From NCBI GenBank assembly GCA_947451145.1, contig CANFXW010000009.1:62001-126000 (forward strand): a DNA stretch of 64,000 nucleotides. Reading direction: 5' to 3'. Positions within the stretch are counted from its first letter, which is position 1. Each line of letters opens with the position of its first letter. A model generated the notes under the pieces. The model did not search any database, was not told the DNA's origin, and saw only the letters and a program-made list of their open reading frames with translations. This stretch comes from Sphingomonadaceae bacterium (GTDB lineage Bacteria; Pseudomonadota; Alphaproteobacteria; Sphingomonadales; Sphingomonadaceae). Below, piece by piece: positions 9,979-28,365 of the stretch. The translations under genes were made by a program, and so were the position numbers.

Positions 9979-11166
9979 ATGGCCAGATCACGGTTCAGCC
10001 GGTTTATCCGCTTCCTCGGCAAGGCGCTGATTGTCATCTTGGCGCTCGGCATGCTGGGCAGCCTGTTTCCGCAGATTTCCGTGCTGGGCGAACTCGGGCC
10101 AATCCTGACTGCCCAGCTTGGCCCCTGGCTGGCGGTCATCGCGCTGGCCGGAGCTGTTATCATGCTTCGCCGCTGGCGGGCAGACCGCCGCAGAAGTGCG
10201 CTGGTCCTCTGCGGTATGGCGGCATTCGCCGGGGTTGTGGCTGTATTCATCCTGTCCCAGCAGGCCGCAACTGCGCGAGCCAACGGGGCGAGGGTTGATA
10301 TTGCGCAGATGTTTCTGGCCAGCTCGCAAGAGGCACCTGACCCGCTTCCGGTTACCGTGAACTACACTAAGTTCGGAACGGAAGATCTGCCGCTGGATAT
10401 CTACCGACCCGCGGCCAGGGCGGACGGCAGGGGCGCACCGGTGTTTGTCTATGTCCATGGCGGCGGCTGGGGAGGACAGACGCTCAAGCAGCGCGAGGCG
10501 GACTATCGCTGGTTCGTGGACCGTGGCTATCTGGTGGTCTCACTGGAATACACTCTATCCAGCAAGACCAGACACACCTGGAACGTGGCTGAGCCGCAGC
10601 TCGCTTGCGCGCTCGGCTGGATCAACGCCAATATCGCGCGCTACGGCGGTGATCCGGCAAGGCTTGCGCTGTGGGGCGAATCTGCCGGCGGCAACCTTGT
10701 TCTCAACCTTTCCTATCGCGCCAACGGCGGAACCCTGCAGTCCGTCTGCGGCGGCACCATGCCCCATGTTGCCGCGACCATTGCGCTCTATCCCGTGGTC
10801 GATCCTGCACGGATGTACCGCCCGGATGAGGCGCTGCTCGGCTTTGCCGGCAGGATGATGGGTGACAACTACACCGGCGGTTCGCCCGAGCAGTTTCCTG
10901 ATCGCTATGCCGCCATTGCTTCGGCAACCCACATCAATCCCAAGGCCCCGCCGACTCTGCTGGTCATCCCTGCAGCCGATCACCTTGTGGCTCCTGCCGT
11001 CGCCTATTCTTTTGACGAAAAGGCGCGCGCAGCCGGGATCGAAACCCGCGTGATAACGATGCCCCATGCCGAGCATGCCTTCGATCTGCGCAGCGGCAGC
11101 GTGGGTAGCCAAATGGTCAGGCAGGTGATGCTGCAATTTCTCGAAGCCCACGAATTGAAACCCTGA
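9979..11166 (+). CDS. Alpha/beta hydrolase (esterase/lipase family)
   Basis: VFVYVHGGGWGGQTLKQREADYRWF...LALWGESAGGNLVLNLSYRA. Confidence 0.88.
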   Translation: MARSRFSRFIRFLGKALIVILALGMLGSLFPQISVLGELGPILTAQLGPWLAVIALAGAVIMLRRWRADRRRSALVLCGMAAFAGVVAVFILSQQAATARANGARVDIAQMFLASSQEAPDPLPVTVNYTKFGTEDLPLDIYRPAARADGRGAPVFVYVHGGGWGGQTLKQREADYRWFVDRGYLVVSLEYTLSSKTRHTWNVAEPQLACALGWINANIARYGGDPARLALWGESAGGNLVLNLSYRANGGTLQSVCGGTMPHVAATIALYPVVDPARMYRPDEALLGFAGRMMGDNYTGGSPEQFPDRYAAIASATHINPKAPPTLLVIPAADHLVAPAVAYSFDEKARAAGIETRVITMPHAEHAFDLRSGSVGSQMVRQVMLQFLEAHELKP

Positions 11167-11191
11167 ATTGCGACTGCAGGAACGAGATCCC

Positions 11192-12895
11192 ATGACAATC
11201 AAGACAATCAACCTAGGTGCAACAGCACTTCTGCGGACCTCTGCATTGATCGCCTTGGCCATTGCGCCCCCTGCTCTCGGCCAATCCGCTCCCGCTCCTG
11301 CCCCCGCACCGGCCAGTCCCGGTCCGCTGACCATTCAGGCTGACAAGCCCGGCGCGGTGATCAACCGCGACATTTTCGGCCAGTTCGCCGAGCATCTTGG
11401 CCTCGGCATCTATGACGGTGTCTGGGTCGGCAAGGACTCCAGGATTCCCAATGTCCGAGGCATCCGCAGCGATGTGGTTGGCGCGCTGAAGGCGATCAAG
11501 GTGCCGGTCGTGCGCTGGCCGGGCGGCTGCTTTGCCGATGAATACCACTGGCGTGACGGCATCGGCCCCGCAGACAAGCGCAGGACCACGGTCAACACCA
11601 ACTGGGGCATGTCGGTTGAGCCGAACACCTTCGGCACTGACGAATTCATGGATTTCGCGAGCCAGATCGGGGCGGAAGCCTATATCTCGGTCAACGTCGG
11701 TTCGGGCACAGTCAAAGAGGCAAACGACTGGGTCGAATATATGACAGCCGCTGCGCCGGCCACTGCTGCTGCCGAGCGCGCTGCCAATGGTCATCCAGCA
11801 CCCTACAAGGTCAAGTACCTCGGTCTCGGCAACGAAAGCTGGGGCTGCGGCGGGCCGTTCACTGCAGACGAATATGTCACCAATATGAAGCCGTTCGCGC
11901 ATTTTGTGCACAACCAGAACCCGGCCCAGGCCGATCCGGCGATCGACTTCACCAAGCTGATCAACGATCTGATGACGGGCAAGGGCATGGACGCCCTTCC
12001 GCGCAATCCAAATGGGATGATGCGTGTCGCGGTCGGGCCGAATTCGCTGGATGGGTCCTATACCGATGCGGTGATGAAGGCGTGGAAGACGCGCTCGCCA
12101 ATCGATTGGAGCATCGAAGGGCTATCGCTGCACCACTACACCTATGGCGGCCTGCCAATGAGCGAACCCGCGACCGGGTTTGGCGAGAAGCAGTATTTCA
12201 CCATGCTCAAGCAGACGCTCGGCATGGAAAGCAATATCGCTATGCATTCGGCGATCATGGACAAGTATGATCCGAAAAAGACTGTTGGTCTGATGGTCGA
12301 CGAATGGGGTGTATGGTTGAAGGCTACGCCCGGCACCGAGCCTCTGCACCTACGCCAGCAAAATTCGCTGCGCGATGGCATTGCCGCATCGCTCAACCTC
12401 AACATCTTTGCCCGTCACGCAGACCGCGTGCGGATGACCAATATCGCGCAGATGGTCAACGTCCTGCAGTCGATGATCATCACCGACGGCGAGAAGATGG
12501 TGCTGACGCCTACCTATCAGGTCTACAAGATGTATGTGCCGTTCCAGGACGCGACCTTCCTGCCGATCACCTTCAACAGCGGCGAATACAGGCTGGGCAC
12601 TGCGAGCCTGCCAAAGGTCGATGCCATTGCTGCCAAGGACAAGGACGGCAAGGTCTGGTTGGCACTGACCAATCTTGATGGCAACAATGCCGCAGACATC
12701 AGCGCTAGCGCCGCCGGGGTGACCGCCAAATCGGCGATTGGCGAAGTTCTGACAGCGGACCGGGTCGATTCGATCAACACTTTTGACACGCCCAATGCCG
12801 TGGCTCCCAAACCTTTCAGCGCAAAGGCCGCCAACGGCAGTCTTGTTCTGCACCTGCCGCCCCATTCTGTGACGGTTGTCAGGCTGGACAAGTGA
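11192..12895 (+). CDS. Alpha-L-arabinofuranosidase, GH51-like
   Basis: DIFGQFAEHLGLGIYDGVWVG...VVRWPGGCFADEYHWRDGIGP...; KYLGLGNESWGCGG; signal peptide at MTIKTINLGATALLRTSALIALAIAPPALGQS. Confidence 0.9.
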   Translation: MTIKTINLGATALLRTSALIALAIAPPALGQSAPAPAPAPASPGPLTIQADKPGAVINRDIFGQFAEHLGLGIYDGVWVGKDSRIPNVRGIRSDVVGALKAIKVPVVRWPGGCFADEYHWRDGIGPADKRRTTVNTNWGMSVEPNTFGTDEFMDFASQIGAEAYISVNVGSGTVKEANDWVEYMTAAAPATAAAERAANGHPAPYKVKYLGLGNESWGCGGPFTADEYVTNMKPFAHFVHNQNPAQADPAIDFTKLINDLMTGKGMDALPRNPNGMMRVAVGPNSLDGSYTDAVMKAWKTRSPIDWSIEGLSLHHYTYGGLPMSEPATGFGEKQYFTMLKQTLGMESNIAMHSAIMDKYDPKKTVGLMVDEWGVWLKATPGTEPLHLRQQNSLRDGIAASLNLNIFARHADRVRMTNIAQMVNVLQSMIITDGEKMVLTPTYQVYKMYVPFQDATFLPITFNSGEYRLGTASLPKVDAIAAKDKDGKVWLALTNLDGNNAADISASAAGVTAKSAIGEVLTADRVDSINTFDTPNAVAPKPFSAKAANGSLVLHLPPHSVTVVRLDK

Positions 12896-12935
12896 ATTCG
12901 AGCCGATCGATCCAACAGCAAAGGAAAATCCGCCC

Positions 12936-13505
12936 ATGACCTTCAGCACTGTTCAGGAAATTGGTTTGGAGCGGCGCGATTTCATTCGCGGTGCCCTGCT
13001 CGCTATCGGCGCTGCCGGAGCATCGTTTCCGGGGTTGAGCGCACTGGAAGCGGCGACGAAGGTCAAGCCACCGTTCTTTGACGCGCGCCGTTTCGCTATC
13101 CTGGATGCCGCAGCGGAGACGATCCTGCCGCGCACCGACACACCCGGCGCGCGCGATGCCAAGGTACCCAAGCGGATCGACATGCTGATGATCGGCTGGG
13201 CTTCGGCCAAGACCAAGGCCGATTTCACAAAGGTGCTTGATGACATGGACAGCGCGGCAGGCGGTCTTGCCGCACTGCCTGCGGACAAGCAGCTGGCGGC
13301 CGTCTCTGCCTTTGACAAGGCGCATGCCGCAGACCCGGCTTATGGCAAGTTCAAGAAGCTGGTTCTGGCGCTCTATTACTTGTCCGAACCGGGCGCGACG
13401 CAGGAACTGCGGTACGAACATACACCGGGCGCATGGGAACCTTCGATCCCCGTTACCGCCGATACCCGCGGCTACGCGGTTGACGTAAGCTTTGGAGGGA
13501 ATTGA
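12936..13505 (+). CDS. Gluconate 2-dehydrogenase subunit 3 family protein (Tat signal)
   Basis: RRDFIRGALLAIGAAG twin-arginine signal; followed by GMC oxidoreductase. Confidence 0.8.
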   Translation: MTFSTVQEIGLERRDFIRGALLAIGAAGASFPGLSALEAATKVKPPFFDARRFAILDAAAETILPRTDTPGARDAKVPKRIDMLMIGWASAKTKADFTKVLDDMDSAAGGLAALPADKQLAAVSAFDKAHAADPAYGKFKKLVLALYYLSEPGATQELRYEHTPGAWEPSIPVTADTRGYAVDVSFGGN

Positions 13506-13506
13506 G

Positions 13507-15192
13507 ATGTTCGATGCAATTGTCGTCGGTTCGGGAATCAGTGGCGGCTGGGTCGCCAAGGAACTGACCGAAAAGGGCCTCAAGGTGCTGGTGCTCGAAC
13601 GGGGCAACAACATCGTCCACGGACAGGATTACAAAGACGGCCTGATGCCGTGGGAGCAGGAGAACGAAGGCCGCGTCAACGAGGACGAGGCTGCCCGCGA
13701 CTACGCCATCCAGAGTACTGCCTATCCCTTCAGCAGCGCGAACAAGACCTTCTGGGTGAAGGACAGCGAACACCCCTATGAGACGCCGGAGGGCAAGCCC
13801 TTCACCTGGACCCGCGGGTTCCATCTGGGTGGCCGTTCGCTAATGTGGGGCCGCATGTCGCTGCGTCTCAGCGACCTCGATTTCGCCGCAAACAAGAAGG
13901 ACGGACATGGTTCCGACTGGCCGATCCGCTATGCCGATCTGGCCCCCTGGTACGATCATGTCGAAGCCTTTGCCGGCGTTTCAGGCTCGCGCGAAGGGCT
14001 GTCGCAATTGCCTGACGGCGATTTCCTCAAGCCGATGGGCCTGAATGACGTCGAGGCTGATTTCAAAAAGAAGATCGAAGCGAAATTTCCCGGTCGCACG
14101 GTGATCCCGCCGCGCGTTGCCAACCTTACCGAAGTGCGTGACCAGCAGGCAGAACTGGGCCGCGGACCCTGCCAGTTCCGCTCGCAGTGTCATAACGGCT
14201 GTTCTTACGGTGCCTATTTCTCCAGCCTCAGCGCAACCCTGCCGGCGGCGGTGAAGACCGGTAACCTGACAGTCATCACCGACGCCATCGTCCACAGCGT
14301 GATCCACGATCCGAAGACCAATCGCGTTACCGGAGTGCGGGTGATCGATGCCAAGACCAAGAAGGCGCGCATCTATGGTGCCAAGGTGGTCTTCCTCAAC
14401 GCATCGACAATCCCCACAGCGCAGATCCTGCTCGCGTCAAAGAGCGCGGCCTTCCCCAATGGCCTCGCCAACAGTTCGGGCATGGTTGGGCGCAATCTGA
14501 TGGATCACGTTGGCGGAGCCTTTGCCTTCGGCATGTATCCGGGCTTTGAAGATCGCTATTATCGCGGCCGCCGTCCGCAGGCGAACATCATCCCGCGTTA
14601 TCGCAATGTCGATACCCAGGAAGACTATCTGCGCGGCTTCGGGCTTGGAACCATGGCCTTCCGCTCTAACTGGCAACTCACCTCGGCGATGCCGATTGGC
14701 ATCGGTGCCGCAGCAAAGGCGCGAATGCGCAAGCCCGGACCGTGGTTCATGTTCGTGGGCGGCACTGCCGAGATGCTGCCGAATCCGGAAAACCGCATCA
14801 CCTTGCATCCCACCCGGACCGACAAATGGGGCATGCCGATCCCGCTGATCGACTGCAGCCATGGCGACAATGACCGCAAGGTGCTCGCCGCTGCCCAGGC
14901 CGATGCTGAAGCCATGATGAAGGCGGCCGGTGCGGTCATTCTCGGCAAGGGCAAGGGGCCGAGCGCACCGGGCATTTCCATCCACGAAATGGGCACCGCG
15001 CACATGGGCACCGATCCCAGAACCTCGGTGCTCAACGGTTACAACCAGGCGCATGACGTGCCCAACTTGTTCATCACCGATGGCGCAGCCATGGCTTCGA
15101 CCGGAACGCAGAATCCGTCGCTCACCTATATGGCCTTGTCAGCCCGCGCGGCGCACCATGCAGTGGAGTTCCTGAAGGCAGGGAAGATCTGA
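13507..15192 (+). CDS. GMC family oxidoreductase
   Basis: MFDAIVVGSGISGGWVAKELTEKGLKVLVLERG; GPCQFRSQCHNGCSYGAYFSS; FITDGAAMASTGTQNPSLTYMALSARAA. Confidence 0.92.
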   Translation: MFDAIVVGSGISGGWVAKELTEKGLKVLVLERGNNIVHGQDYKDGLMPWEQENEGRVNEDEAARDYAIQSTAYPFSSANKTFWVKDSEHPYETPEGKPFTWTRGFHLGGRSLMWGRMSLRLSDLDFAANKKDGHGSDWPIRYADLAPWYDHVEAFAGVSGSREGLSQLPDGDFLKPMGLNDVEADFKKKIEAKFPGRTVIPPRVANLTEVRDQQAELGRGPCQFRSQCHNGCSYGAYFSSLSATLPAAVKTGNLTVITDAIVHSVIHDPKTNRVTGVRVIDAKTKKARIYGAKVVFLNASTIPTAQILLASKSAAFPNGLANSSGMVGRNLMDHVGGAFAFGMYPGFEDRYYRGRRPQANIIPRYRNVDTQEDYLRGFGLGTMAFRSNWQLTSAMPIGIGAAAKARMRKPGPWFMFVGGTAEMLPNPENRITLHPTRTDKWGMPIPLIDCSHGDNDRKVLAAAQADAEAMMKAAGAVILGKGKGPSAPGISIHEMGTAHMGTDPRTSVLNGYNQAHDVPNLFITDGAAMASTGTQNPSLTYMALSARAAHHAVEFLKAGKI

Positions 15193-15194
15193 TC

Positions 15195-16067
15195 ATGATG
15201 ATGAAGACTTCTCTGGTGCTAGCGGGCGCGATTCTGCTCTCTGCCCCTGCTGAAGCACAAATGCTGCATTCGCCAACGCAGGCCGAAACCTGCGCCAGCG
15301 TGCAGCCGCCGCCAGAGCAAAGTCTGGCGATTCTAAACTTGCTGATGGTTGAGTCGAAGAAATTCACCGGTCTGGCAGATCTGCTCAAGCAACTTCCGCC
15401 AGAGGCTATGGCCAAGATGGCGACTGCGCAGGCACAGGAAAAGGAGCGGCAGGCAAAGGACTGGCCCTGGCTCTGCCGCTATGCCGCCGATAATGCGGCG
15501 GTAATCCAAAGCGGCGTGCGGCCGAAGGTCGTCTTCATCGGCGATTCGATCACCGAGAACTGGAAGATCGCCGACCCCTCGCTGTTCAGTGAAACCATGC
15601 TGGATCGCGGCATTGGCGGCCAGACGACGCCACAGATCCTGCTGAGGTTCTATCAGGATGTCGTTTCGTTGCACCCGCAAGTGGTTCACATCATGGCGGG
15701 GACCAACGACATTTCGGGCAATACCGGAGCCTCAACCGACGGAACCATTGTCCGCAACATCCGCGCGATGATCGACATTGCCAAGGCAAATGGCATTCGC
15801 GTGGTGCTCGCGAGTATCACCCCTTCGAAGACCTTCATCGCACGCCCTGGCGTGGACCCTTCTTCCCGAATTGCCGCCGTGAACCGTGAGCTCAAGGCAC
15901 TCGCTGCAGAAAAGCGGATCACCTATGCCGATTATTTCCCGCTACTTGCTGACAACGACGGTGGAATGGATTCTTCATTGGGAAACGATGGCCTGCACCC
16001 CAATCGCATTGGCTATGCGAGAATGCGGGTGTTAACGGACAAAGTCATCGGCTCGCATCCAAAGTAA
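15195..16067 (+). CDS. SGNH/GDSL hydrolase family protein
   Basis: KVVFIGDSITENWK; GIGGQTTPQILLRFYQDV; HIMAGTNDISGNTG; LGNDGLHPNRIGYARM. Confidence 0.9.
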   Translation: MMMKTSLVLAGAILLSAPAEAQMLHSPTQAETCASVQPPPEQSLAILNLLMVESKKFTGLADLLKQLPPEAMAKMATAQAQEKERQAKDWPWLCRYAADNAAVIQSGVRPKVVFIGDSITENWKIADPSLFSETMLDRGIGGQTTPQILLRFYQDVVSLHPQVVHIMAGTNDISGNTGASTDGTIVRNIRAMIDIAKANGIRVVLASITPSKTFIARPGVDPSSRIAAVNRELKALAAEKRITYADYFPLLADNDGGMDSSLGNDGLHPNRIGYARMRVLTDKVIGSHPK

Positions 16068-16394
16068 CACCTATTATCTGGGCATAAGGATTTCGGCTCC
16101 GGCAAATGAAGGGGCCCGCAGGTTCTGATGCCTGTTTCTTCGCCGCGGATTTCTCTAGCGCGCGTGGATGAATGGTAGCGGCAAGCGTGCCCAGCTAAGT
16201 AGTGAGCGAGCAACAACTAATATGTCTGCGCCGACCGATACAAAGCGAACGCCTGCTTTGTTGTCGTGTCCGAACGGGCTGCATTCAGATTGGATCGGCT
16301 ATTCGCTGACATGGCTGTGCATTCATTGGGGCGTCCGCATTTCGGGGTTCCAAACAATTTGCCACCGTTCAGGATCGTCCAACAAAGCCGACCC

Positions 16395-16943
16395 TCACCC
16401 TCGCTCAGTCCACCACTCTGGCCAACGCACATTCTCTGGCGTGCGCGTCGCCTTCCACACCTCACGCTGCTCTTCCGGCGCAAGTCGCCGTGTCCCGAAC
16501 CTGTTCAGTGCTGCCTCGACGATCCACGGGGCGAGCAGCCAGTGTACCTTCTTTTCGTCGAGCGGGAACCGTTTCACTGCTAGTCCGAGCGCGCGAAGCG
16601 AACAGCCGATTGTATAACTGATCACGATGATACGGGTGATCTGGGTTATCCCCTGTTTGTCAGGTCGGCTGGCGCGGGCGGCTTCGATTGCATTGAGAGA
16701 AGCCCGTGCGGCTGCACTGTCACCCGCAAGTCCCTTGCGTGTTAGCTGAAGCAAGAACGCTTCCGCCGCGGTAACTCTTCGTTCACGCCCGTCTTCGCGG
16801 ATCGTGACCATCTGACCGAGGACGGTGTCATAGGGGATCTGCCGGGCGCGACCGCGCGGACGCCCCTTGGGATTACCGCTGCTACCTTTCCTGAACCGCG
16901 TCGCCGCCGGCGGACTCTTGTACCCGATCTGCTCACTCTCCAT
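16395..16943 (-). CDS. DUF5681 domain-containing protein (AT-hook-like N-terminus)
   Basis: TRFRKGSSGNPKGRPRGRARQIPYDTVLGQMV. Confidence 0.8.
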   Translation of the reverse strand: MESEQIGYKSPPAATRFRKGSSGNPKGRPRGRARQIPYDTVLGQMVTIREDGRERRVTAAEAFLLQLTRKGLAGDSAAARASLNAIEAARASRPDKQGITQITRIIVISYTIGCSLRALGLAVKRFPLDEKKVHWLLAPWIVEAALNRFGTRRLAPEEQREVWKATRTPENVRWPEWWTERG

Positions 16944-16945
16944 GG

Positions 16946-17485
16946 CTAACCTCGCCGCTTGCGCGGCCAGCGCAGTCTGGCGGGATTGATCGTCTGGCGC
17001 TTGATGTCCTCGATGTCCTTGTCGGTGAGCATTCGCCGGCCGGGGCGGCTGATAGCCATCTGGCTTGCCCAGGTGGCGAGTCTCATGGGCCGTGTTGCAG
17101 GACCTCCACCGTGCGGCGGCTCGTCGAGTTCCGCTATGCCAAGGAGCATCATCGCATCGTTGGCATTGTTACTGTCATGCTCGATCTCGAGAGTGACCGG
17201 CTTGAACTCTGGAGGAGCCAGTTTCAGGATCGCAGCCTCGCGCTTCTCGATCATCTTGAGTACGGTGCGGATCGCCATGCGGCTGCCCTTGAGCGCGGCC
17301 TGGTAGGTCGGGAGCTGAAGCGCTTCATCAACGCTGAACTCACGCTCGATGCCGTTCTGTGTCACCTTGAGCGTCTTGTCGAAGATGATGTCGAACGCCG
17401 AGATATCCGGCCGCCGCTTTTTCGGGCGGCCTTTGAGGTTGCCCGATTGACCTTTCTGGAACCGGGTGGATGGCATGCCGTTCAT
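16946..17485 (-). CDS. DUF5681 domain-containing protein (second paralogue)
   Basis: STRFQKGQSGNLKGRPKKRRPDISAFDIIFDKTLKV; 4-nt overlap with the methyltransferase gene. Confidence 0.8.
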   Translation of the reverse strand: MNGMPSTRFQKGQSGNLKGRPKKRRPDISAFDIIFDKTLKVTQNGIEREFSVDEALQLPTYQAALKGSRMAIRTVLKMIEKREAAILKLAPPEFKPVTLEIEHDSNNANDAMMLLGIAELDEPPHGGGPATRPMRLATWASQMAISRPGRRMLTDKDIEDIKRQTINPARLRWPRKRRG

Positions 17486-18783
17486 TCAGCAGCCTCCGCG
17501 ACCCCGCGATGGACAAGAATCGCTTGCCTGCCGGTAAGCTGCTCCCAGCGCATGATGGCAACATCGACATAGGCAGGATCGATATCGACGCCGCGGAACT
17601 GCCTTCCCACCCGCTCGGCCGCGATCAGGCTGGTGCCCGAGCCGAGGAAGATGTCGAGGACAAGTTCACCCAGCCGGGTAACATCACAGATCGCATCAGC
17701 GACCATAGCGACCGACTTTACCGTCGGGTGCAGCGCCAGATCCTCGCGGCGGCTGCCGCGCATCGAGTTCACCGAGGCGTAGTCCCAGACGTTGGTCCGG
17801 TTGCGCCCATGCTTGCCAAGTTCGACCGTGTTGGAGTGCGCAGCACCCGGCACCCGGTAGACGAACACCATCTCGTGCTTTGAACGATAGAGCGAGCCCA
17901 TGCCGGCATTGCTCTTGTTCCACATGCACATATTGAGAAGCGTGTCGTAGATAGGAGTGGCCGCCGCACTGACATCGTCCATATGCCGCCAGTCCATACA
18001 GACGAAGTGGACCGCGCCGGGCCTTGAGACCGCGGCACAGGCACCCAGCGTCTCGGAGAGGAACGTCCGGAACGCGGACGTGGTCATCTCGCCCGAGGCC
18101 ATGGCGAACTCGCGGTGTCGCCCCTTGGCATTCGCGTGGCCGTTGATCTTCACGTTGTAAGGCGGATCGAGAAAGGCGGCATCGATCGCGCCCTTACCGA
18201 TCACCTCGCGCAGAAACGAGATATCTCGCCCATCGCCGCAACCAATACGGTGTTCGCCGAGTTGCCAGATGTCGCCGGGCACCGTGCGGGGAGTCTCGGG
18301 TACGGCCGGGATCACCTCGTCGTCGGGATCTTCGCTGTCCTTGAGGATTACGTCGATCTCGCCCGAGCTGAACCCGGTGAGGCCAAGATCAATGTCGATG
18401 TCCGGCAGTGACAGGTCGGCGAGTTCCAGCTTGAGGATCTCGACATCCCAGCCGGCGCTTAGTGCAATCTTGTTGTCAGCCAGCCTGAGCGCGCGGACCT
18501 GCGCGTCGCTGAGCCCGGCAATCTCGATCACCGGGACCTCGGCAAGACCCAGTTGCTTTGCCGCCAGCAGCCTTCCGTGCCCGGCGATCACCTTGCCCGA
18601 TGGCTCCGCGAGCACCGGGTTGGTAAACCCGAACGTCCGGATCGAGGCAGCGATCTGTTCGATCTGCCGTTTGGGATGCGTGCGCGCATTGCGGGGGTCG
18701 GGGACGAGGCTCGCGGTCGGCCAATAGGCGACGGCGAGCGAGCGATCAGCAGGCGAGGCTGCCGAGTGGGGCGAATCGGCCAT
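17482..18783 (-). CDS. ParB-like nuclease domain fused to site-specific DNA (N4/N6) methyltransferase
   Basis: SLVPDPRNARTHPKRQIEQIAASIRTFGFTNPVLAEPSGKVIAGHGRLLAAKQLG (ParB-like); DAAFLDPPYNVKI and VLDIFLGSGTSLIAAERVGRQFRGVDIDPAYVD (MTase). Confidence 0.92.
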   Translation of the reverse strand: MADSPHSAASPADRSLAVAYWPTASLVPDPRNARTHPKRQIEQIAASIRTFGFTNPVLAEPSGKVIAGHGRLLAAKQLGLAEVPVIEIAGLSDAQVRALRLADNKIALSAGWDVEILKLELADLSLPDIDIDLGLTGFSSGEIDVILKDSEDPDDEVIPAVPETPRTVPGDIWQLGEHRIGCGDGRDISFLREVIGKGAIDAAFLDPPYNVKINGHANAKGRHREFAMASGEMTTSAFRTFLSETLGACAAVSRPGAVHFVCMDWRHMDDVSAAATPIYDTLLNMCMWNKSNAGMGSLYRSKHEMVFVYRVPGAAHSNTVELGKHGRNRTNVWDYASVNSMRGSRREDLALHPTVKSVAMVADAICDVTRLGELVLDIFLGSGTSLIAAERVGRQFRGVDIDPAYVDVAIMRWEQLTGRQAILVHRGVAEAAE

Positions 18784-18913
18784 GATCGAACATAGGCAGA
18801 ACGTTCCCGTTATGTCTACCTCCCGACACAATGCCCTTGGGGATAAATTCGGGAGCGCCTCAGGCATCGACAATGGACTGGACTGTTGGGCGCAACCGAG
18901 CATTGGTCGTTAT

Positions 18914-18930
18914 GCCCGGCCGTGCCGGGC
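18914..18930. promoter_or_regulatory. Inverted repeat GCCCGGC-CGT-GCCGGGC in divergent promoter region
   Basis: 7-bp perfect arms, about 50 bp upstream of the DUF3489 start. Confidence 0.5.
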
Positions 18931-18980
18931 TCGTGGCGGTAGCGGCCGGGATTGTCCCGCGCTGCAACCGGAGAACTACA

Positions 18981-19286
18981 ATGACTAACATTACCCAGAG
19001 CGCCGCTAGCCAGAAGAGGCCGCGCCGGATGGCGCGCGAACCGCAGGCTAGCTCAGGCTTGCAGCAGCAGTCCGAACCGCGCGCAAAGGCACCATCAAAA
19101 CTTGACCAGGTCGAGGCCCTGCTTCGCGCCGGGCAAGGTACCGGCATTGCCGAGATCATGGCTGTAACCGGCTGGCAGCAGCACTCGGTGCGTGGGGCCA
19201 TGGCGGGAGCACTCAAGAAGCGCGGACTGGTGATCACCTCGGCCAAGGTCGATGGTGTCCGCCGCTACCGCGCGAGCGCGGCATGA
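18981..19286 (+). CDS. DUF3489 domain-containing protein
   Basis: SKLDQVEALLRAGQGTGIAEIMAVTGWQQHSVRGAMAGALKKRGLVITSAKVDGVRRYR. Confidence 0.9.
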   Translation: MTNITQSAASQKRPRRMAREPQASSGLQQQSEPRAKAPSKLDQVEALLRAGQGTGIAEIMAVTGWQQHSVRGAMAGALKKRGLVITSAKVDGVRRYRASAA

Positions 19287-19693
19287 GCGCGGCGCAGGTA
19301 ACAGAGTCCGTCCGCGAGATTGAGAACCTCGATCTTGATGGCCTGAGGAAGGAGTGGGCGCGCCATTACGGCGCGCCTCCGCCGCTGCGTTCGGTCACCA
19401 TCCTGCGGCTTATCCTGGCATGGCGGCTGCAGGCTGATGCGCAGGGCGGACTAGACAGCGATACGCGCCGCGCGCTGGCAAGGAAGGGCAGGGTTAAGGC
19501 TGAAGGGCTGGAACTTGGCATTGGCGCGCGGATTACCCGCACCTGGATGGGCAAGACCCACGAGGTAATCGTCGAGGCGGACGGGTTCCGCTGGGAGGGA
19601 CACACCTATCGCAGCCTGTCAGCGGCCGCGACCGCGATTGCCGGCAGCCGCTGGAATGGGCCGCGGTTCTTTGGCCTGCGCGAGGCACCATGA
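19283..19693 (+). CDS. DUF2924 domain-containing protein
   Basis: EIENLDLDGLRKEWARHYGAPPPLRSVTILRLILAWRLQADAQGGLDS...GARITRTWMGKTHEVIVEADGFRWEGHTYRSLSAAATAIAGSRWNGPRFFGLR; ATGA overlaps on both sides. Confidence 0.92.
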   Translation: MSAAQVTESVREIENLDLDGLRKEWARHYGAPPPLRSVTILRLILAWRLQADAQGGLDSDTRRALARKGRVKAEGLELGIGARITRTWMGKTHEVIVEADGFRWEGHTYRSLSAAATAIAGSRWNGPRFFGLREAP

Positions 19694-21252
19694 AGCGCTG
19701 CTCCATCTACACCCGCAAGAGCAGCGACGAGGGTCTCGAGCAGGAGTTCAACAGTCTCGATGCCCAGCGCGAGGCAGGTGAGGCCTATGTGAAGAGCCAG
19801 GCCAGCGAAGGCTGGCGCGCATCGCCTGCGCGCTACGACGATGGCGGCTATTCAGGAGGCACCATGGAACGCCCGGGTTTGCAGCGCTTGCTGGCAGATA
19901 TCGATGCAGGCCTGATCGATGTTGTGGTCGTCTACAAGATCGATCGACTGACCCGCAGCCTCGCCGACTTCGCCCGCATCGTCGAGCGGTTTGATGCCAA
20001 GGGCGTGAGCTTCGTCTCGGTAACCCAGTCGTTCAATACAACCTCGTCGATGGGCCGGCTGACGCTCAATGTCCTGCTGTCGTTCGCCCAGTTCGAGCGC
20101 GAGGTCACTGGCGAACGTATCCGTGACAAGATCGCTGCCTCCAAGGCCAAGGGCATGTGGATGGGCGGCACCCTGCCGCTGGGTTACGATCCACCGCTTC
20201 CCGGCGCCCGCGTTCTGCAGGTGAACCAGTCCGAAGCGGCAACAGTGCGGCATATCTTTACGCGCTACCTTGAACTCGGCTCGGTGCACAGGCTCGCCGA
20301 GGAGCTGCAGGAACAGGGCATCTTCTCGAAGCGCCGCATCGCGGCGAGCGGCAAGGAGCAGGGCGGCTTGCCATTCTCACGTGGCGCCCTGTTCCACCTG
20401 CTGCGCAACCGGATCTACCTCGGCAAGATCACGCACGGCACGCTCATCCACGAAGGCCAGCACGAGGCGATCATCGACGAGGACCTGTTCGCGGCCGCCG
20501 AGGCAAGGCTCGACCTCCAGAAGCGCCGACATGGCAGTAGGGCCGAGAGCAGGGTCGCCAAGGCGCCGCTCACCGGTCGGTTGTTCGATGCAGCAGGTAT
20601 TCCAATGAGTCCCTCGTTCTCGCGCGGGCGCTCGGGGAGAGTCTATTGCTACTACGTGTCGGCGTCGCTGCAGCAAGGCGGCAGGGCAGGGGCCTCGAAT
20701 GGAACCCGCGTGTCAGCGACCGTTCTGGAGAGGATCCTGACGCAGGCGCTAGGCCGGCTCATGCCTTCCACGCGCAATGCCTTTGGTCAGGTGGACAAGG
20801 TAACGATGCGTCATGACCGGATTGAGCTGGCATTGCCCGCAACACTCGCACGCGAAGCGGCATTGAACTGCGAGGATGGAGAAGAGGTAGTGCCGTTGGA
20901 CAGAGCAACAAGCCTCCTCATCTTGCCAATCACCCTCGCTTCCAGGCGTGGTGCCAGAACCATTGCGAGCGGCACGAAGCCGCAGGCGCAGCCTGATTCC
21001 ATCCTCATCGCAGCGCTGCGCAAGGCGCACCGCATGCTGGGTTCCGATCGGATCGGCAGACCGGTTCTTCATTCCTCGCCAGCCTCCAGATACGAACGGC
21101 GCCTGGTCCGGCTGGCCTTTCTCGCCCCTGTGATCCAGGCCGATATCCTTGCCGGACGCCAGCCACATCACGTCAACCTCGAGGTCCTGATCAGGGCAGA
21201 CATACCGCCAGATTGGGATGACCAACGCGCCGCGCTGCGCTGGAACGGCTGA
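19690..21252 (+). CDS. Recombinase family protein (large serine recombinase)
   Basis: MKRCSIYTRKSSDEGLEQEFNSLDAQREAGEAYV...DVVVVYKIDRLTRSLADFARIVE...SSMGRLTLNVLLSFAQFEREVTGERIRDKIAASKAKGMWMGG. Confidence 0.95.
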   Translation: MKRCSIYTRKSSDEGLEQEFNSLDAQREAGEAYVKSQASEGWRASPARYDDGGYSGGTMERPGLQRLLADIDAGLIDVVVVYKIDRLTRSLADFARIVERFDAKGVSFVSVTQSFNTTSSMGRLTLNVLLSFAQFEREVTGERIRDKIAASKAKGMWMGGTLPLGYDPPLPGARVLQVNQSEAATVRHIFTRYLELGSVHRLAEELQEQGIFSKRRIAASGKEQGGLPFSRGALFHLLRNRIYLGKITHGTLIHEGQHEAIIDEDLFAAAEARLDLQKRRHGSRAESRVAKAPLTGRLFDAAGIPMSPSFSRGRSGRVYCYYVSASLQQGGRAGASNGTRVSATVLERILTQALGRLMPSTRNAFGQVDKVTMRHDRIELALPATLAREAALNCEDGEEVVPLDRATSLLILPITLASRRGARTIASGTKPQAQPDSILIAALRKAHRMLGSDRIGRPVLHSSPASRYERRLVRLAFLAPVIQADILAGRQPHHVNLEVLIRADIPPDWDDQRAALRWNG

Positions 21253-21651: not shown

Positions 21652-21665
21652 TGGCGGAGACGGAG
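21652..21665. repeat. Candidate attL (14-bp core TGGCGGAGACGGAG)
   Basis: Identical to the tRNA-Ser 3' terminal sequence at 28273-28286. Confidence 0.7.
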
Positions 21666-21856
21666 TCCGTCCGAATGACGGCGTATTTGTCGAATGTGAC
21701 GGTATTGCGTGGGATTGACCCATTGCCAGCATCGGAAACTAGACCCATCCGACGCACAAGACTTTTGCAAGCGGGTCGTAGTTGCAGGGTCGAAATTACA
21801 TGGTTGCATGGTTGGACGGAGGTGCACTAATTGCTTAGCCCCCAATGGAGGCAACA

Positions 21857-23005
21857 ATGACAGACACCAAACGCAAACCCCTAACCACTGATCTTGCAGT
21901 CAAGAACGCGAAATGCGCAGAGGGAAAACGTGTCACGCGTTATTCCTGCGGAGGTCTCGGTCTATTCCTTGACGTCAAAGCGGGCGGTGCGCGGTCCTTT
22001 ATGCTTTGCATCATGGTCAATCGAAAGCGTTTGGAGCGAGGTCTTGGGTCGTACCCACAAGTTGGGCTGGCCGATGCCAAGGAGCGAGCCATTGTGTGGG
22101 CACGGCAGTTGCGCGAAGGCAATCAGGTAGGGGTAAAGGCGGCAAGGGCAGCGGCCCCAGCAGTTGTCACCTTTCGCGCGGCCGCCAAGCAATTTCTCGA
22201 ATTCCAAGACAGAGAAGGTAATTATAAGAAGGCATTAAATGGCAAGGAGGGTGTTCATCGCCGTCAATGGGACTACACGCTCGATACTTTTGTTCACCCA
22301 AAGATAGGGGATATGGACGTCAATGAGATACGGCTTTCGCATCTCACCCCAATCTTTGAACCTATGTGGAAGGCGAAGTATGCGACCGCATCGAAGACGC
22401 GCTCGCGCATTGCGCTTGTCCTCGATTACAGCGTTGATCAAGGTTGGCGGAATGAGGATTTGATGAATCCTGCACGTCACAAATCAACCACTTTCAAGCG
22501 ACCGAAGGGCTACCAAACAAAGAGTCATGCAGCTGTTGAAGTCGAGGATATGCCAAACTTCATGGCCGATCTTCGTAAGCTGGAATCGATTTCAGCAGCC
22601 GCATTAGAGATCACGATCCTGACAGGCGTTCGCACAACTGAAACTCGTGCGGCGAAATGGGACGAGATTAACTTCGAATCCCGAACTTGGATCATTCCTG
22701 CCGAGAGAATGAAAGCGAGCAAGGCGCATCGCGTTCCGTTGTCTGATCGCGCAATCGAAGTGTTCAAGCGGCTTCTCCCACTGCGGGGGCCGGACGACTT
22801 TGTGTTCCCAAGCCGGGGGAGCTGCCTTTCAAATATGGCACAGCTTGCTTGTCTCAAGGGCCTCCTGCCTGATGTAACCGTCCATGGCTTTCGCTCGACG
22901 TTTCGCGATTGGGCCATCCAACAAGGTATTGTCGATGAAGTGCGCGCAGCATGCAGCGCACACTCGAAAAAGGACAAGGTGCAGGCGGCATACGAACAGG
23001 CCTGA
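21857..23005 (+). CDS. int: P4-type tyrosine recombinase/integrase, short C-terminus
   Basis: LAVKNAKCAEGKRVTRYSCGGLGLFLDVKAGGARSF (DUF4102-like N-terminus); LTGVRTTETRAAKWDEIN; VHGFRSTFRDWA; SAHSKKDKVQAAYEQA*. Confidence 0.9.
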   Translation: MTDTKRKPLTTDLAVKNAKCAEGKRVTRYSCGGLGLFLDVKAGGARSFMLCIMVNRKRLERGLGSYPQVGLADAKERAIVWARQLREGNQVGVKAARAAAPAVVTFRAAAKQFLEFQDREGNYKKALNGKEGVHRRQWDYTLDTFVHPKIGDMDVNEIRLSHLTPIFEPMWKAKYATASKTRSRIALVLDYSVDQGWRNEDLMNPARHKSTTFKRPKGYQTKSHAAVEVEDMPNFMADLRKLESISAAALEITILTGVRTTETRAAKWDEINFESRTWIIPAERMKASKAHRVPLSDRAIEVFKRLLPLRGPDDFVFPSRGSCLSNMAQLACLKGLLPDVTVHGFRSTFRDWAIQQGIVDEVRAACSAHSKKDKVQAAYEQA

Positions 23006-23074
23006 GGCCGCTTGCGAAAGTCCTGAACTCACGCCACAACGATTTTGCCTTCCGTGAAAGCCGGTAGGCGGGGC

Positions 23075-23188
23075 TTAGTAACCCCTCTCAGCAAACTCGG
23101 TCCCCAATTTGGAGGCCGGGTGGCATGCGCGTATGTCCAGCCGGTTCGCCGGTAAAGGCGCATGCGCCTGCGCTGAGTAGGTTACTAA
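23075..23188. other. Nested inverted-repeat region (structured DNA/RNA candidate)
   Basis: TTAGTAACC/GGTTACTAA (23075-23083 and 23180-23188) and CTCAGC/GCTGAG (23087-23092 and 23172-23177) enclosing GCATGCGC/GCGCATGC and CCGGttcgCCGG. Confidence 0.6.
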
Positions 23189-23251
23189 CATCCGGCTTTG
23201 GCCGCGCCCCGAGAGGAACATAGGGGTTGCGCAAGGTCTAGCTGATCGCCG

Positions 23252-23268
23252 CTCCTGACAGTCAGGAG
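23252..23268. promoter_or_regulatory. Hairpin CTCCTGAC-A-GTCAGGAG overlapping a Shine-Dalgarno sequence
   Basis: 8-bp perfect arms; right arm contains the AGGAGG ribosome binding site of the GTG-started ORF at 23276. Confidence 0.6.
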
Positions 23269-23275
23269 GCGCGCT

Positions 23276-23860
23276 GTGAAATTCGTTGCAGTAATGGTTT
23301 TCGCAGGAGGGTTGGTCGCTCTTCTGCTTGGGCTGATTGGTATCGTAAGACCGATTACGATCTTGCGCATGCCCACAAGGAAGCGCGCTGCCGGTTGGGT
23401 AGTTATCGGCTTTACTGCGATGATTCTCGCGGTGATTGTCGGCCCCTCTGAGACGGAAAAGCAACGAGCTGGCGGACAGCAAGAACTAGGCCAGCGTCGG
23501 GAAGCGGCAGTTCAGAAGTGTTTGCAAGATGGCAAATATGCAAGTCAGGCTGACTGCATATCAAAAGTCAGCGATGCCTTTGAACTGCGTCGCCATGGGA
23601 TGAGTGACGCGCTAGATAAATTTCAACAGTGTGCCAAGGATGGTTCGGGCTGTCCCGACGCCAATTCCTTTGATCTGCCATATTCCTGCCAAACTGCATT
23701 CGAGGCAGCGGGCGTCGCATTGTACTTTACAGATTCAATTGATCGGAAGCGAAAGTGGGCAGAGGTAAAACCCACCGAATGCATTGATGAAATGGAGCTA
23801 TGGAAGTTGCAGGCAAAGCCGGTTTTTAACGCTTTGGAAAGAGCAGCAAATCGTCCGTAA
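23276..23860 (+). CDS. Hypothetical protein with N-terminal membrane segments and a Cys-containing C-terminal domain
   Basis: GTG start with strong SD; MKFVAVMVFAGGLVALLLGLIGIVRP...AAGWVVIGFTAMILAVIVGPS. Confidence 0.6.
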   Translation: MKFVAVMVFAGGLVALLLGLIGIVRPITILRMPTRKRAAGWVVIGFTAMILAVIVGPSETEKQRAGGQQELGQRREAAVQKCLQDGKYASQADCISKVSDAFELRRHGMSDALDKFQQCAKDGSGCPDANSFDLPYSCQTAFEAAGVALYFTDSIDRKRKWAEVKPTECIDEMELWKLQAKPVFNALERAANRP

Positions 23861-24280
23861 CAGGCCGTTGGGTAGCAGCTACTCCCGGTATCGATACCCT
23901 GCCTGTTGAAACCTTGCCGCGCATTGCAAACATGGCAACTGACTGCGACCACGAGCTAACCGAGGCTGGGTTGGCTGGCTTGGCAGATAGCCTGACCACA
24001 GATTGAGACCATTTTACCGACAGCGGGGGGGATAAGCATGATCCCTTTCACCGGATCAAGATGCTGATGCGGACATGACGTCCGCAACACTCAATAGGAA
24101 ATCCGCCACTTTCCGACTGTTGTTGTCCGCTAACCCTGCAAATGCACCGATAACAAGGAGCGTCGAGGTCGCAGCATGTGAGTGTGCAATTTGCCTTTGG
24201 ATGCGAGGCAGGCCTTGTTTGATGTAGCTGCTTCACTGATCCGGCGTAGATATTTGGGCTGCAATTTGCCAATCTCAGCT

Positions 24281-24523
24281 TATCATCCTGCAATATCATC
24301 AGAACAAATAAAACGTATCATCGAGAAATAAGCGGCTCATGATACAAAATTCAGCTGATTTTGGGGATTTAATAAACATGTATCACAAATATCATTTTTA
24401 TCATTATTTCATGAAATTTTGAGTCTCGATATGAGGCTCTATAAATTGCTTCCGACGCATATCTCCTTCGACGCCTTTGTGCAGGCGGGGCGCACGTCAT
24501 ATTCGTGTGAAGCGTGATACATG
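24281..24523. other. AT-rich iteron-like region, putative replication origin
   Basis: Six TATCAT/ATGATA words within 24281-24404, TATCAC/GTGATA at 24381 and 24514, palindrome ATTTCATGAAAT at 24406-24417, adjacent to the primase gene. Confidence 0.5.
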
Positions 24524-24530
24524 CACATGA

Positions 24531-26927
24531 TCAGTCAAAAGCATCTCCACGTGCCCAACGGCCATCAATCTGCTGGCCCTTTGCGTCCTTGACGGGTTCA
24601 ATTTTTCGCGAGAGCTCAAGTAGACCTAGTGCGGCTCTGATCGCCCTTTTAGGGTCCTTGCTGTCGATCTTGCCCGCACGTGTGGTTATGCTGTCATAAT
24701 CGGGCAGATAGGCGAGTGTGAAATAGCCTTTGGCAATCGCCATGCGCGCCCGAGCGGGATTTGTGCACTTTCCTTTCTCAAAATATCGACGGATTAGCTC
24801 TTCGATCCGCGCAGCGAGAGCAATGGTATCGCTGTCCAGGTTACCGTTGCGAAGATGCTCCAGCGCAATTGCAGTTGAATTTTCGCAAGCCATGCGCGAC
24901 CAGTCCAGTATCTCCCGCGTGATTGGCGTCCCGTTCCAAAATGCCATTGCCGTGGCCATTCGAATTGTGTTCTCGCATAATGAGCGGAGCAGCTGTGCCT
25001 TTTTCCCAGCGTTTGCACGTCTCCAAAGCGATACCTCCTGCCGCCATTCGAAGAATTCATTGTCCAGCTCTTCGGTCGTGAAGCCGACGTGGAAATGGGG
25101 CTGAGGTAGATTGTTCGGCGGGTTGATGCAGGCAAAGCGCGACTGCATGGCTTCAAGTAATTTCGGATCGACTGCTTCGGCTGGCTTCCGATTGAATGAT
25201 GGCTTACCATCACCCTGAGCAAAGAACACGCGACCTAGAAGCCCGTCTGTGACGCCATGCGCAGCCAACCCTTGAAACGTCTCTTCTTCGGTCCCCATCC
25301 CCAAAAACGACAACGCCGGATTGGCGATGGGTTCACGGTCTTTATCGGCCTTGGTCAACTCTTGCCCGGTTAGCATTTTGCGCGGGCCAAACTGCGAAAC
25401 TCCGTAAATCTTCTTCATCAGATCGAGAATGCCGCGCTGCCAAGCCGAGGTTGATCTTGTCAGGGCCTCAAACCAAGGGCCCATTTCATCTTGCAGTAGG
25501 AAGCCCGAGCCATTGCACGGACCCTCACCGAGTTTTCGATAGAGGCCGCTGTCCGAACGCGGTTCACCGATGATCTTAACTCGATCGCCGACGACCTGTG
25601 ACATTGCTCCTCCTGAAAGGACCTCCTTGCCGAAACCGGCTGTTGCAGTGGCAATGATGTAAAGGTTGGCGAACGCGAGTGAGGGTCCGACAACGCGGTT
25701 GCCAAGCATCGCTCCCATGTGACTAAGGGTTGCGACGTTCGCCAACTGAAGGTCGGTTTCGGCGACCGAAGTCAAAAGCCAATCGCGGTAGCCGCGGTAG
25801 ATTGGGACGGGAAAATCGGGCAGTTCAATTCGCGGGAAGTCATCATCGATCTCGATCCGCTTCCCGGCTCGAGCTATATAGATGCCTGCCATGCGCTCCC
25901 GCTGCGCATCGGCCTCCCGCTTAGCTTCCTCCACTTCGCGGTTCGCTAGGCCAATGAGCTTGTGATACTCGCCCCTGAGGTTGAAGCGATCATAGTTGAC
26001 CTTCGAAGGCGAAGTGAAGCGACGCTGGTTCTGCTTGGAGATGGCAGGGGTTTGCTCGGCCAAGTAGGACTCGCTGACGATCCGCCAAACAATCTCATGT
26101 TGGTCCCTGTGGCCACAGGTGATTTTTGCGGCCCATTGGATCAAGGCCGCACGGGATTCGGACAGGTTGACCTCATCAAGCCCGGCTGGGCCTTCTATCA
26201 ATTCCCGGTAGTTGAACCCTGCGCTGGTCTTGCTTGAACTCTGGACCATGCGTCGCCGGGTTTCGCCAATGGCCTCCTCCAAAGGTAAGGCGCATAGTTC
26301 GGAATCGCCTTCAACCTCGGAAATGGGGACACCGTCGAAGCTGTAGCTTGAAGCGATGCCTTGCAACTGTGCTAGCAAGTTCGCGGGAATGGCAGCGATT
26401 GGCAGGCCATTGCTGCAGCCGGTCATCCGAACCCAACCGTTACCGATCAGCAAATCAATTCCATGGAGGCCTTTTATTTGGCGGAAGGGAAGGCCGTGGT
26501 CGTTAGGCAACCGGAACGCGGCATGAAATCGCCCTGGGCTGCGGGACTGCTCAGTGTAGGTGGTTTCAAGACAGTCGGCCAGCAAGCAATCATACGCTGA
26601 CTGCGCCGTTTCCAAAGTCTGACCTTCACCATAGTTCGCATGCTCGCGGCTGGGACGATCATCGAAATCCAGCCAGAGAATTGACCCTGTGCCAAGGTGC
26701 GCCGCGTATGCCTGCTTACCCTGTCCTCTCCAATAATCGACCCATGCGATAATCCGAGGCAGTGCCGAACGTACTGACGAGTCACTCCAAGTGACAACTG
26801 TACTTGTCCCGTAGTGCGGGTTGTTCTCATCACCAGCCAACGGTTGATAGAGCCATTGATCGCCAAGGTTCAGGAGAAATTCGTCTCCCTCTATGACGGG
26901 CCAGTGGTTTGGTTTGAACTCTGACAT
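24531..26927 (-). CDS. Primase/helicase-like protein (DUF3987-like)
   Basis: MSEFKPNHWPVIEGDEF...; ILWLDFDDRPSREH...GRFHAAFRLPNDHGLPFRQIKGLHGIDLLIGNGWVRMTGC (prim-pol-like); LYIIATATAGFGKE (Walker-A-like) and FLLQDEMGPWFEAL. Confidence 0.75.
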   Translation of the reverse strand: MSEFKPNHWPVIEGDEFLLNLGDQWLYQPLAGDENNPHYGTSTVVTWSDSSVRSALPRIIAWVDYWRGQGKQAYAAHLGTGSILWLDFDDRPSREHANYGEGQTLETAQSAYDCLLADCLETTYTEQSRSPGRFHAAFRLPNDHGLPFRQIKGLHGIDLLIGNGWVRMTGCSNGLPIAAIPANLLAQLQGIASSYSFDGVPISEVEGDSELCALPLEEAIGETRRRMVQSSSKTSAGFNYRELIEGPAGLDEVNLSESRAALIQWAAKITCGHRDQHEIVWRIVSESYLAEQTPAISKQNQRRFTSPSKVNYDRFNLRGEYHKLIGLANREVEEAKREADAQRERMAGIYIARAGKRIEIDDDFPRIELPDFPVPIYRGYRDWLLTSVAETDLQLANVATLSHMGAMLGNRVVGPSLAFANLYIIATATAGFGKEVLSGGAMSQVVGDRVKIIGEPRSDSGLYRKLGEGPCNGSGFLLQDEMGPWFEALTRSTSAWQRGILDLMKKIYGVSQFGPRKMLTGQELTKADKDREPIANPALSFLGMGTEEETFQGLAAHGVTDGLLGRVFFAQGDGKPSFNRKPAEAVDPKLLEAMQSRFACINPPNNLPQPHFHVGFTTEELDNEFFEWRQEVSLWRRANAGKKAQLLRSLCENTIRMATAMAFWNGTPITREILDWSRMACENSTAIALEHLRNGNLDSDTIALAARIEELIRRYFEKGKCTNPARARMAIAKGYFTLAYLPDYDSITTRAGKIDSKDPKRAIRAALGLLELSRKIEPVKDAKGQQIDGRWARGDAFD

Positions 26928-26928
26928 T

Positions 26929-26957
26929 GCACTCACCTTGTGTTTCAGGGTGAGTGC
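26929..26957. promoter_or_regulatory. Inverted repeat GCACTCACC-N11-GGTGAGTGC upstream of the primase start
   Basis: 9-bp perfect arms immediately 5' of ATG at 26927 (minus strand), overlapping the apparent SD AAGGTGAG. Confidence 0.6.
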
Positions 26958-27073
26958 CATCCCTTGTATTGGGACGCCGTTTTGCACCTATATAATTGTA
27001 TTACTAATATTATTTTGCTTGTCTCAACTGCCGCGCATGATGTATTCGATACGCCTCGTCAGGACGCCCCACA

Positions 27074-27520
27074 ATGACGCCAGAACCTTTTCATCAAGTA
27101 CGCGCTGACATTGCATTGGCCCTAATCGCCGATGGCCGTGTCCCATCCGAATTTTGCAGCGAGCAAGACCCGAATTTGCCTAGCCGTCCGTCGAGCCTTG
27201 AGCATTGGGCACTCGTTGATGCGGGCTTCGCTGCGCGGCTCAAAGCGGCCAAGGCGACCGGGGCCTTGGTCATGCTATCGCAATGCATCCAAATCGCTGA
27301 TGATCAAGCAATCCGGGCAGACCAGAAACGCCTGATGATCGACACACGCATGAAGGTCGCTGCGATTTGGAACCCATCTGACTGTGTGCCGTCGAAACCA
27401 GACAAGGAGCCGATAGCTGGCGTTCACGCACTTTTGCACGTGCCCTTCGATCAGCTCGATGACAGTAAGAAGCGCGAAGTCGAGAAGTTTTTCGGCTTCG
27501 ATGCGCCAGATCGGCCATAG
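27074..27520 (+). CDS. Small terminase subunit-like protein (Sf6 gp1-like fold)
   Basis: ADIALALIADGRVPSEFCSEQDPNLPSRPSSLEHWALVDAGFAARLKAAKATGALVMLSQCIQIADDQAIRADQKRLMIDTRMKVAAIWNP follows the Sf6-type TerS pattern (W..D..FA...A.A.......I.IAD......RL.IDTR). Confidence 0.65.
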   Translation: MTPEPFHQVRADIALALIADGRVPSEFCSEQDPNLPSRPSSLEHWALVDAGFAARLKAAKATGALVMLSQCIQIADDQAIRADQKRLMIDTRMKVAAIWNPSDCVPSKPDKEPIAGVHALLHVPFDQLDDSKKREVEKFFGFDAPDRP

Positions 27521-27547
27521 TTGCTTGGGGTGTCAGTGCGCACTCTA

Positions 27548-27748
27548 TCACCTGCCCAACTCCTCACAGAGCTGAGAAACCATGTCCTTTAGAGCAATGC
27601 TGAAACTACCATGATAGCTTACCGCTCCAGCAAGATCAGTCAGGGCTTCGGCAATCTTCGACAGCTCGAGTACGTGAAGAGCGGCAGCAACGATTGCAGG
27701 GTCGCTTGAGTCGAGAAGTCTGGCTACAATGTGATCGCGCTCGCTCAT
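27548..27748 (-). CDS. Small hypothetical protein translationally coupled to the AlpA-like gene
   Basis: 66 aa, 4-nt overlap with upstream regulator ORF. Confidence 0.5.
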   Translation of the reverse strand: MSERDHIVARLLDSSDPAIVAAALHVLELSKIAEALTDLAGAVSYHGSFSIALKDMVSQLCEELGR

Positions 27749-27957
27749 GCCGAAGCTCCCGCTGGATGCCGACAGGCATCGAGAAGCCCCTCTAGGCTTG
27801 AAACGAATATTAGCCTGCGGCCTCCCACAGTCGCCGACTCAAGTCGGCCATCGTCCATCATTTTGTATAGTGTGTCTTTGCCCAGCCCCGTGGCTGAAAC
27901 AGCCGCCTTTACCGAGCAGGTGATTGGCCGAAGGCCAGTTGAAGTATCGAAGTGCAT
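27745..27957 (-). CDS. AlpA/excisionase-like helix-turn-helix protein
   Basis: CSVKAAVSATGLGKDTLYKMMDDGRLESATVGGRRLIFVSSLEGLLDA matches the MerR-like HTH_17/excisionase pattern. Confidence 0.8.
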   Translation of the reverse strand: MHFDTSTGLRPITCSVKAAVSATGLGKDTLYKMMDDGRLESATVGGRRLIFVSSLEGLLDACRHPAGASA

Positions 27958-28148
27958 AACGCCTCCCTAGAGGCGGTGTTTCCGGCTAAAGGCCTTATGA
28001 TTACCGCGAGTTGATAACCCGGTCGCAGTTGCAGGTCGCTCATATGAGTGGCTTTCGAGTCTCTTTTCCGGGGCGACACATGTCGCGCCACCCTGCATAG
28101 GTCGAATGCGACTAATTGTCAACATAAATAATGTTTAATTTCATGCAG

Positions 28149-28187
28149 TTATTACATCTTTGTAATAATGCTACGCCTACGCGTAGG
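28149..28187. promoter_or_regulatory. Two adjacent palindromes in the att-proximal arm
   Basis: TTATTACA-tctt-TGTAATAA (28149-28168) and CCTACGCGTAGG (28176-28187). Confidence 0.65.
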
Positions 28188-28275
28188 GCAAGAAGCAGTG
28201 ATGGGTTGATTACAGGGTTATGCCAAGGGTCCATCAATTTATGATGGATTTTCAGTGCGATAAATTATGAAATGG

Positions 28276-28365
28276 CGGAGACGGAGGGATTCGAACCCTC
28301 GGTACCGGATTTACCAGTACGACGGTTTAGCAAACCGTTGGTTTCAGCCACTCACCCACGTCTCC
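28276..28365 (-). tRNA. tRNA-Ser (anticodon GCT); encoded CCA at 28273-28275
   Basis: Reverse complement GGAGACGTGGGTGAGTGGCTGAAACCAACGGTTTGCTAAACCGTCGTACTGGTAAATCCGGTACCGAGGGTTCGAATCCCTCCGTCTCCG(CCA); acceptor stem GGAGACG/CGTCTCC, class II variable arm. Confidence 0.97.

Follow-up and report, generated by a model that had tools for sequence, protein, structure and literature searches.

A 6.6-kb island at a sphingomonad tRNA-Ser gene carries an Sf6-type small terminase and resembles minimal phage satellites

We analysed a 64,000-nt stretch of DNA from a Sphingomonadaceae bacterium (the window), in which a 6.6-kb element at positions 21652-28286 is bounded by two copies of a 14-nt repeat at a tRNA-Ser gene. 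Between the repeats lie six genes, which encode a P4-type integrase, ORF194, a primase, a terminase small subunit (TerS), ORF66 and an AlpA/Xis-like helix-turn-helix (HTH) protein. The features, with the evidence for each, are as follows.

21652-21665, no strand: distal att copy TGGCGGAGACGGAG, displaced tRNA-Ser 3' end, left island end (exact-word search)
21845-23005, plus strand: P4-type tyrosine integrase, 386 aa (PF00589 at 2.1e-17, PF22022, PF13356; phrog_1 at 1e-42)
23276-23860, plus strand: ORF194, a protein of no confident family match, with N-terminal hydrophobic stretches by reading
24260-24539, no strand: AT-rich non-coding stretch with repeated ATGATA/TGATAC, candidate replication origin (word counts)
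24531-26987, minus strand: primase/helicase, 818 aa as listed (phrog_3022 DNA primase at 2.5e-32; sub-threshold DUF3987 and Prim-Pol)
27074-27520, plus strand: terS, Sf6-type terminase small subunit, 148 aa (PF20901, phrog_1482, AlphaFold, Foldseek)
27548-27748, minus strand: ORF66, from the list of open reading frames, with no family match and a 4-nt overlap with alpA
27745-27957, minus strand: AlpA/Xis-like HTH protein, 70 aa (PF12728 HTH_17 at 3.3e-6, above cut-off)
28273-28286, no strand: tRNA-side att copy TGGCGGAGACGGAG, right island end (exact-word search; break of congeneric similarity)
28273-28365, minus strand: tRNA-Ser(GCT), the integration site (ARAGORN; Rfam RF00005)

The repeat is the longest exact word common to the boundary region and the interval 15.9-24.6 kb. 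The chance expectation for a 14-nt match is about 0.015, before its position at a tRNA end and its distance of ~180 nt to the integrase are counted. A search with 25 nt of the tRNA, allowing up to 3 mismatches, and a first repeat scan gave no second att copy; the 14-nt copy was found by exact-word search. Its tRNA-side counterpart starts at the exact 3' end of tRNA-Ser(GCT), and the similarity of congeneric genomes to the window, followed from the tRNA outwards, is lost at 28272/28273, again precisely at the tRNA 3' end. GC content is 53.7% from 21.3 kb to the tRNA versus 60-63% outside. Two of 11 related integrases (41-43% identity) adjoin other tRNA-Ser genes.

The integrase stops right after its tyrosine motif, and alignment shows that ~25 C-terminal residues of its relatives are missing. 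Longer homologues occur in 26 genomes of the family, and the C-terminal segment is present in all homologues listed, so this copy of the island may not excise. The primase is more likely to start at the ATG at 26927 than at the listed start. It scores 18.7 bits against DUF3987, below the cut-off of 27, and its G-GK motif region retains the form seen in relatives. Searches of genome-contig, viral-contig and plasmid collections yielded no relatives of the primase, and tblastn against phage records gave only matches of 23-27%. The stretch 24260-24539 has ATGATA 6 times on both strands and TGATAC 4 times; some 6-mer reaches 6 copies in 1.6% of Markov simulations, which is no more than suggestive of a replication origin. 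The AlpA-like protein also matches the TIGR01764 excise family at 7.6e-6, slightly below cut-off. We recognised no interference or capsid-remodelling gene in the island.

The terS frame opens with ATG, and both its sequence and the predicted fold of its product identify an Sf6-type TerS. Residues 12-102 match Pfam family PF20901 (Sf6_terminase) at 35.3 bits, above the curated cut-off of 27 (E 1.3e-8), and PHROG 1482, annotated 'terminase small subunit', matches at E 4.8e-8; terS is the sole PF20901 match in the source genome. NCBIfam gave no match and a direct sequence search of the PDB nothing convincing. A profile of TerS and 57 relatives reaches Sf6 gp1 at about 5e-41, a signal that comes mostly from the relatives. 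The AlphaFold2 model built on this alignment (pLDDT 87.9, pTM 0.67) predicts an N-terminal HTH (helices 8-19, 24-28 and 39-48) followed by a central domain of two long helices (50-76 and 82-99). With this model, the top six Foldseek matches in the PDB are all Sf6 gp1 chains (probability 1.00, TM 0.55-0.69), with E values of 2.5e-3 to 5.3e-3 and thus none below 0.001; beyond Sf6 gp1 the PDB search returned no convincing match. Among viral structures, the named top matches are mostly terminase small subunits. The earlier note, made from the letters alone, had read this protein as Sf6 gp1-type, and the Pfam, PHROG and Foldseek matches bear this out; it had also named a predicted structure without the TerS HTH and oligomerisation fold as evidence against that assignment, and the model has both an HTH and a helical central domain. 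A promoter and terminator scan around terS gave no excess over chance.

With Sf6 gp1 (PDB 3HEF, 4DYC; PF20901) the island protein shares an N-terminal HTH and a central helical oligomerisation domain; the two sequences are 24-25% identical over about 104 aligned columns. The island protein differs further in having no adjoining large terminase (TerL) gene and in its tail, which takes the place of the YGDK segment and is modelled mostly at low confidence, with a single helix. Residues 101-148 are predicted at low confidence except for that short helix at 130-140. The K and YGDK by which the family leads into its C-terminal domain are replaced, with I98 for K (98% of relatives), V105 for Y (95%) and P106 for G (88%). 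By eye, the tail resembles those of phage TerS proteins well; with a tail HMM, 282 of 13,974 scored shuffles equalled or exceeded the real tail, and an ungapped PSSM gave p = 0.049, on which we make no claim of homology. Since the K/YGDK segment is absent and the likeness to the tails of phage TerS proteins is marginal (p~0.05), the binding to a helper TerL that the earlier note suggested for this tail is a tentative candidate role.

Together, the shortened integrase and the changed TerS C-terminus suggest that a once mobile satellite might have been stranded, with terS and the primase as decaying passengers. Such an account would also fit the absence of close relatives of the island among 300 genomes of the family. 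We nevertheless consider it unlikely, as no other frame is interrupted anywhere along its length, the G-GK region of the primase is as in its relatives and an intact-looking att pair persists.

The nearest genomic relatives of TerS in the 300 Sphingomonadaceae genomes are 31-37% identical and occur in two genomes. They immediately precede large terminase genes that match Terminase_6N, and in one case a P22-type portal follows. No close relative was found in the order, and tblastn of TerS over phage records gave no match. Among 209 viral loci with TerS relatives, 191 have enough sequence 3' of the gene, and a large same-strand ORF adjoins it in 181. When five sphingomonad downstream ORFs (three confirmed as TerL by Pfam, two unnamed) were used as tblastn queries, 134 of 211 loci, that is the 209 viral loci plus the island loci L140 and L141 described below, had a match. 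The relatives of TerS are thus overwhelmingly found in phage packaging modules, and in the sampled prophages none of the other island genes stands beside them. Two congeneric genomes encode 99-aa PF20901 proteins in which the HTH part is kept and the remainder shortened, with no PF17289 terminase match nearby. In one genome, a single TerS-TerL prophage region is present twice, on the chromosome contig and on a 38-kb contig of its own; the prophage may be active or plasmid-like, or the assembly may have duplicated it.

The island could be a non-packaging integrative element whose TerS-like protein binds DNA to assist in replication, in partition or in regulating the divergent primase gene: terS is divergent from the primase with an AT-rich intergenic region common to both, and its C-terminal half, where contact with the motor is expected, is not family-like. 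We regard this as rather improbable, given that the retained HTH and oligomerisation core matches packaging proteins only and that its relatives are so consistently phage packaging genes.

The earlier note had placed terS inside an island with no large terminase or structural gene nearby, and both statements hold. The gene belongs to a bounded unit with satellite-type genes, whose limits and tRNA-Ser att repeat are new in the present analysis. No TerL was found in the window; Pfam and PHROG family scans found no virion or structural gene among the six island genes, and reading of the open reading frames elsewhere in 8-36 kb gave no structural gene. The genome has a single Terminase_6 match, which lies on a different contig and is preceded by a small terminase-like ORF of its own, and most sampled relatives have a comparable match; we infer that this locus is an alphaproteobacterial gene transfer agent. 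The search for a resident helper phage, which covered two TerL families and identified none, leaves room for a helper with another type of TerL.

An independent parallel was found in a betaproteobacterial genome, an Oxalobacteraceae MAG, where a 9.9-kb island (5946-15898, locus L140) sits at tRNA-Ser(TGA). It encodes an integrase, a gene overlapping the integrase by 4 nt, AlpA, a D5-type primase, an unknown ORF, an orphan TerS (PF20901 at 75.8 bits) and cargo, and is bounded by a 14-nt repeat (5946-5959 and 15885-15898) that ends exactly at the tRNA 3' end. The architecture therefore recurs at a tRNA-Ser site in another class. The cargo consists of two caspase-domain proteins and a MORN-repeat protein, possibly a defence module. 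Another island (L091) has the integrase, AlpA and primase without TerS. We rejected an apparent second sphingomonad with the island (L056/L141): the entire 11.5-kb contig matches a section of the Oxalobacteraceae contig at 99.94% identity, chromosomal flanks included, and its presence in a Sphingomonadales MAG was for that reason treated as misbinning.

That terS was retained by chance in a prophage remnant appears highly improbable. Its relatives are indeed phage genes, but the locus is a single bounded 6.6-kb unit with integration, excision and replication genes and no tail, capsid, lysis or TerL fragments, and L140 repeats the same gene set.

Most descriptions of phage satellites concern enterics, vibrios and Gram-positive cocci. 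We found no report of sphingomonad phage satellites in the open-access literature; such reports may exist elsewhere. Some Gram-negative PICIs carry terS, and AlpA drives their induction (PMC6092414). The island shares with them (EcCICFT073 type and terS-bearing E. coli PICIs; PMC6092414) an integrase, an AlpA-type regulator, a primase and a unit bounded by its own att repeat without structural or lytic genes among its six genes. It differs in its size (6.6 kb versus about 15 kb), its sphingomonad host, the lack of recognised interference genes and the inverted terS between ORF66 and the primase. Its gene order also departs from the usual PICI one: int occupies the end distal to the tRNA, and terS runs in the opposite direction to alpA and the primase. 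A closer match in size and core is PICMI115 from Vibrio, a 6,110-bp int-alpA-prim satellite for which there is evidence of headful-like packaging as a concatemer (PMC10803314), with which the island shares int, AlpA, a small ORF after alpA and the primase. From the mandatory PICMI set (int, an AlpA of PF12728 or PF05930, and a DUF3987/DUF5906 primase), the integrase and the PF12728 match are present and the DUF3987 similarity of the primase is sub-threshold (18.7 versus 27 bits). In contrast to PICMIs, which are reported without terS and at fis (PMC10803314), the island has terS, is at tRNA-Ser and has no integrase-overlapping gene. SaPIs with their own TerS (PMC6092414, PMC5052747) are comparable in that an orphan TerS is thought to recognise island DNA and to use the helper's large terminase. 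They differ from the island in being Gram-positive, in having a Stl repressor and capsid-size genes and, as published descriptions have it, in belonging to another terminase family. TerS-bearing PICIs and minimal int-alpA-primase satellites are thus already known; what is new is that both features meet in a 6.6-kb element of a sphingomonad, inserted at tRNA-Ser.

With moderate confidence, we favour the reading that 21652-28286 is a minimal PICI/PICMI-like satellite in which TerS marks island DNA for the motor of a headful helper, and that the island probably travels inside the particles of a helper phage. The reading draws on the identity and predicted fold of TerS, with relatives that are phage packaging genes adjoining TerL. 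It also draws on the tRNA 3' end being repeated over 14 nt at the far boundary, the low GC content and the int/AlpA/primase set, with no TerL or virion genes. The independent Oxalobacteraceae island at a second tRNA-Ser, the published PICI terS (PMC6092414) and the packaged 6,110-bp satellite (PMC10803314) point the same way. Once a helper phage becomes active, the island would leave tRNA-Ser through the joint action of the integrase and the AlpA-like protein, and would be replicated by the primase/helicase. TerS would form a ring, bind a pac-like site in the island DNA and present the island concatemer to the large terminase of a headful (Sf6/P22-like) helper, whose capsids would then fill with island DNA. 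A headful helper fits the P22-type portal beside a related TerS; for induction, ring assembly, pac binding and use of the helper motor, we infer by analogy with published satellites. Counted against the satellite reading are the shortened integrase, a TerS without K98/YGDK, a tail not clearly phage-like, the strand of terS, the position of int, and the absence of a recognised interference or capsid-remodelling gene and of an identified helper.

A more speculative extension, which we hold to be quite doubtful, is that the island belongs to an unnamed lineage of small proteobacterial satellites that enter tRNA-Ser genes at their 3' end and have an Sf6-type TerS core and an exchangeable tail matched to the local motor, here possibly that of the gene transfer agent. 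If the function proposed for the satellite is true, the island shows how little a satellite needs, its own packaging-specificity gene included. More such islands could be sought by the signature of a 14-nt repeat at the 3' end of tRNA-Ser, and a TerS whose core is kept while its tail has diverged offers a way to test if satellites adjust to their helper through the motor-binding end.

Two further observations concern the sequence in and beside the island. At 23100-23225, between the integrase and ORF194, an intergenic stretch of ~110 nt shows 76-87% identity to intergenic regions of sphingomonad plasmids, which in three annotated records lie a short way ahead of a gene for an RNA polymerase sigma factor, with a FecR gene after it. 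It has self-complementary arms (fold z-score -1.8) and no Rfam match, and may be a leader RNA or a repeat that has not been catalogued. The immediate left neighbour of the island, at 16168-21252, is a separate module, probably another mobile cassette, in which a large serine recombinase (19690-21252; PF00239, PF07508) is preceded by ORFs that read like a ParB/DNA-methyltransferase fusion and by small unknown genes.
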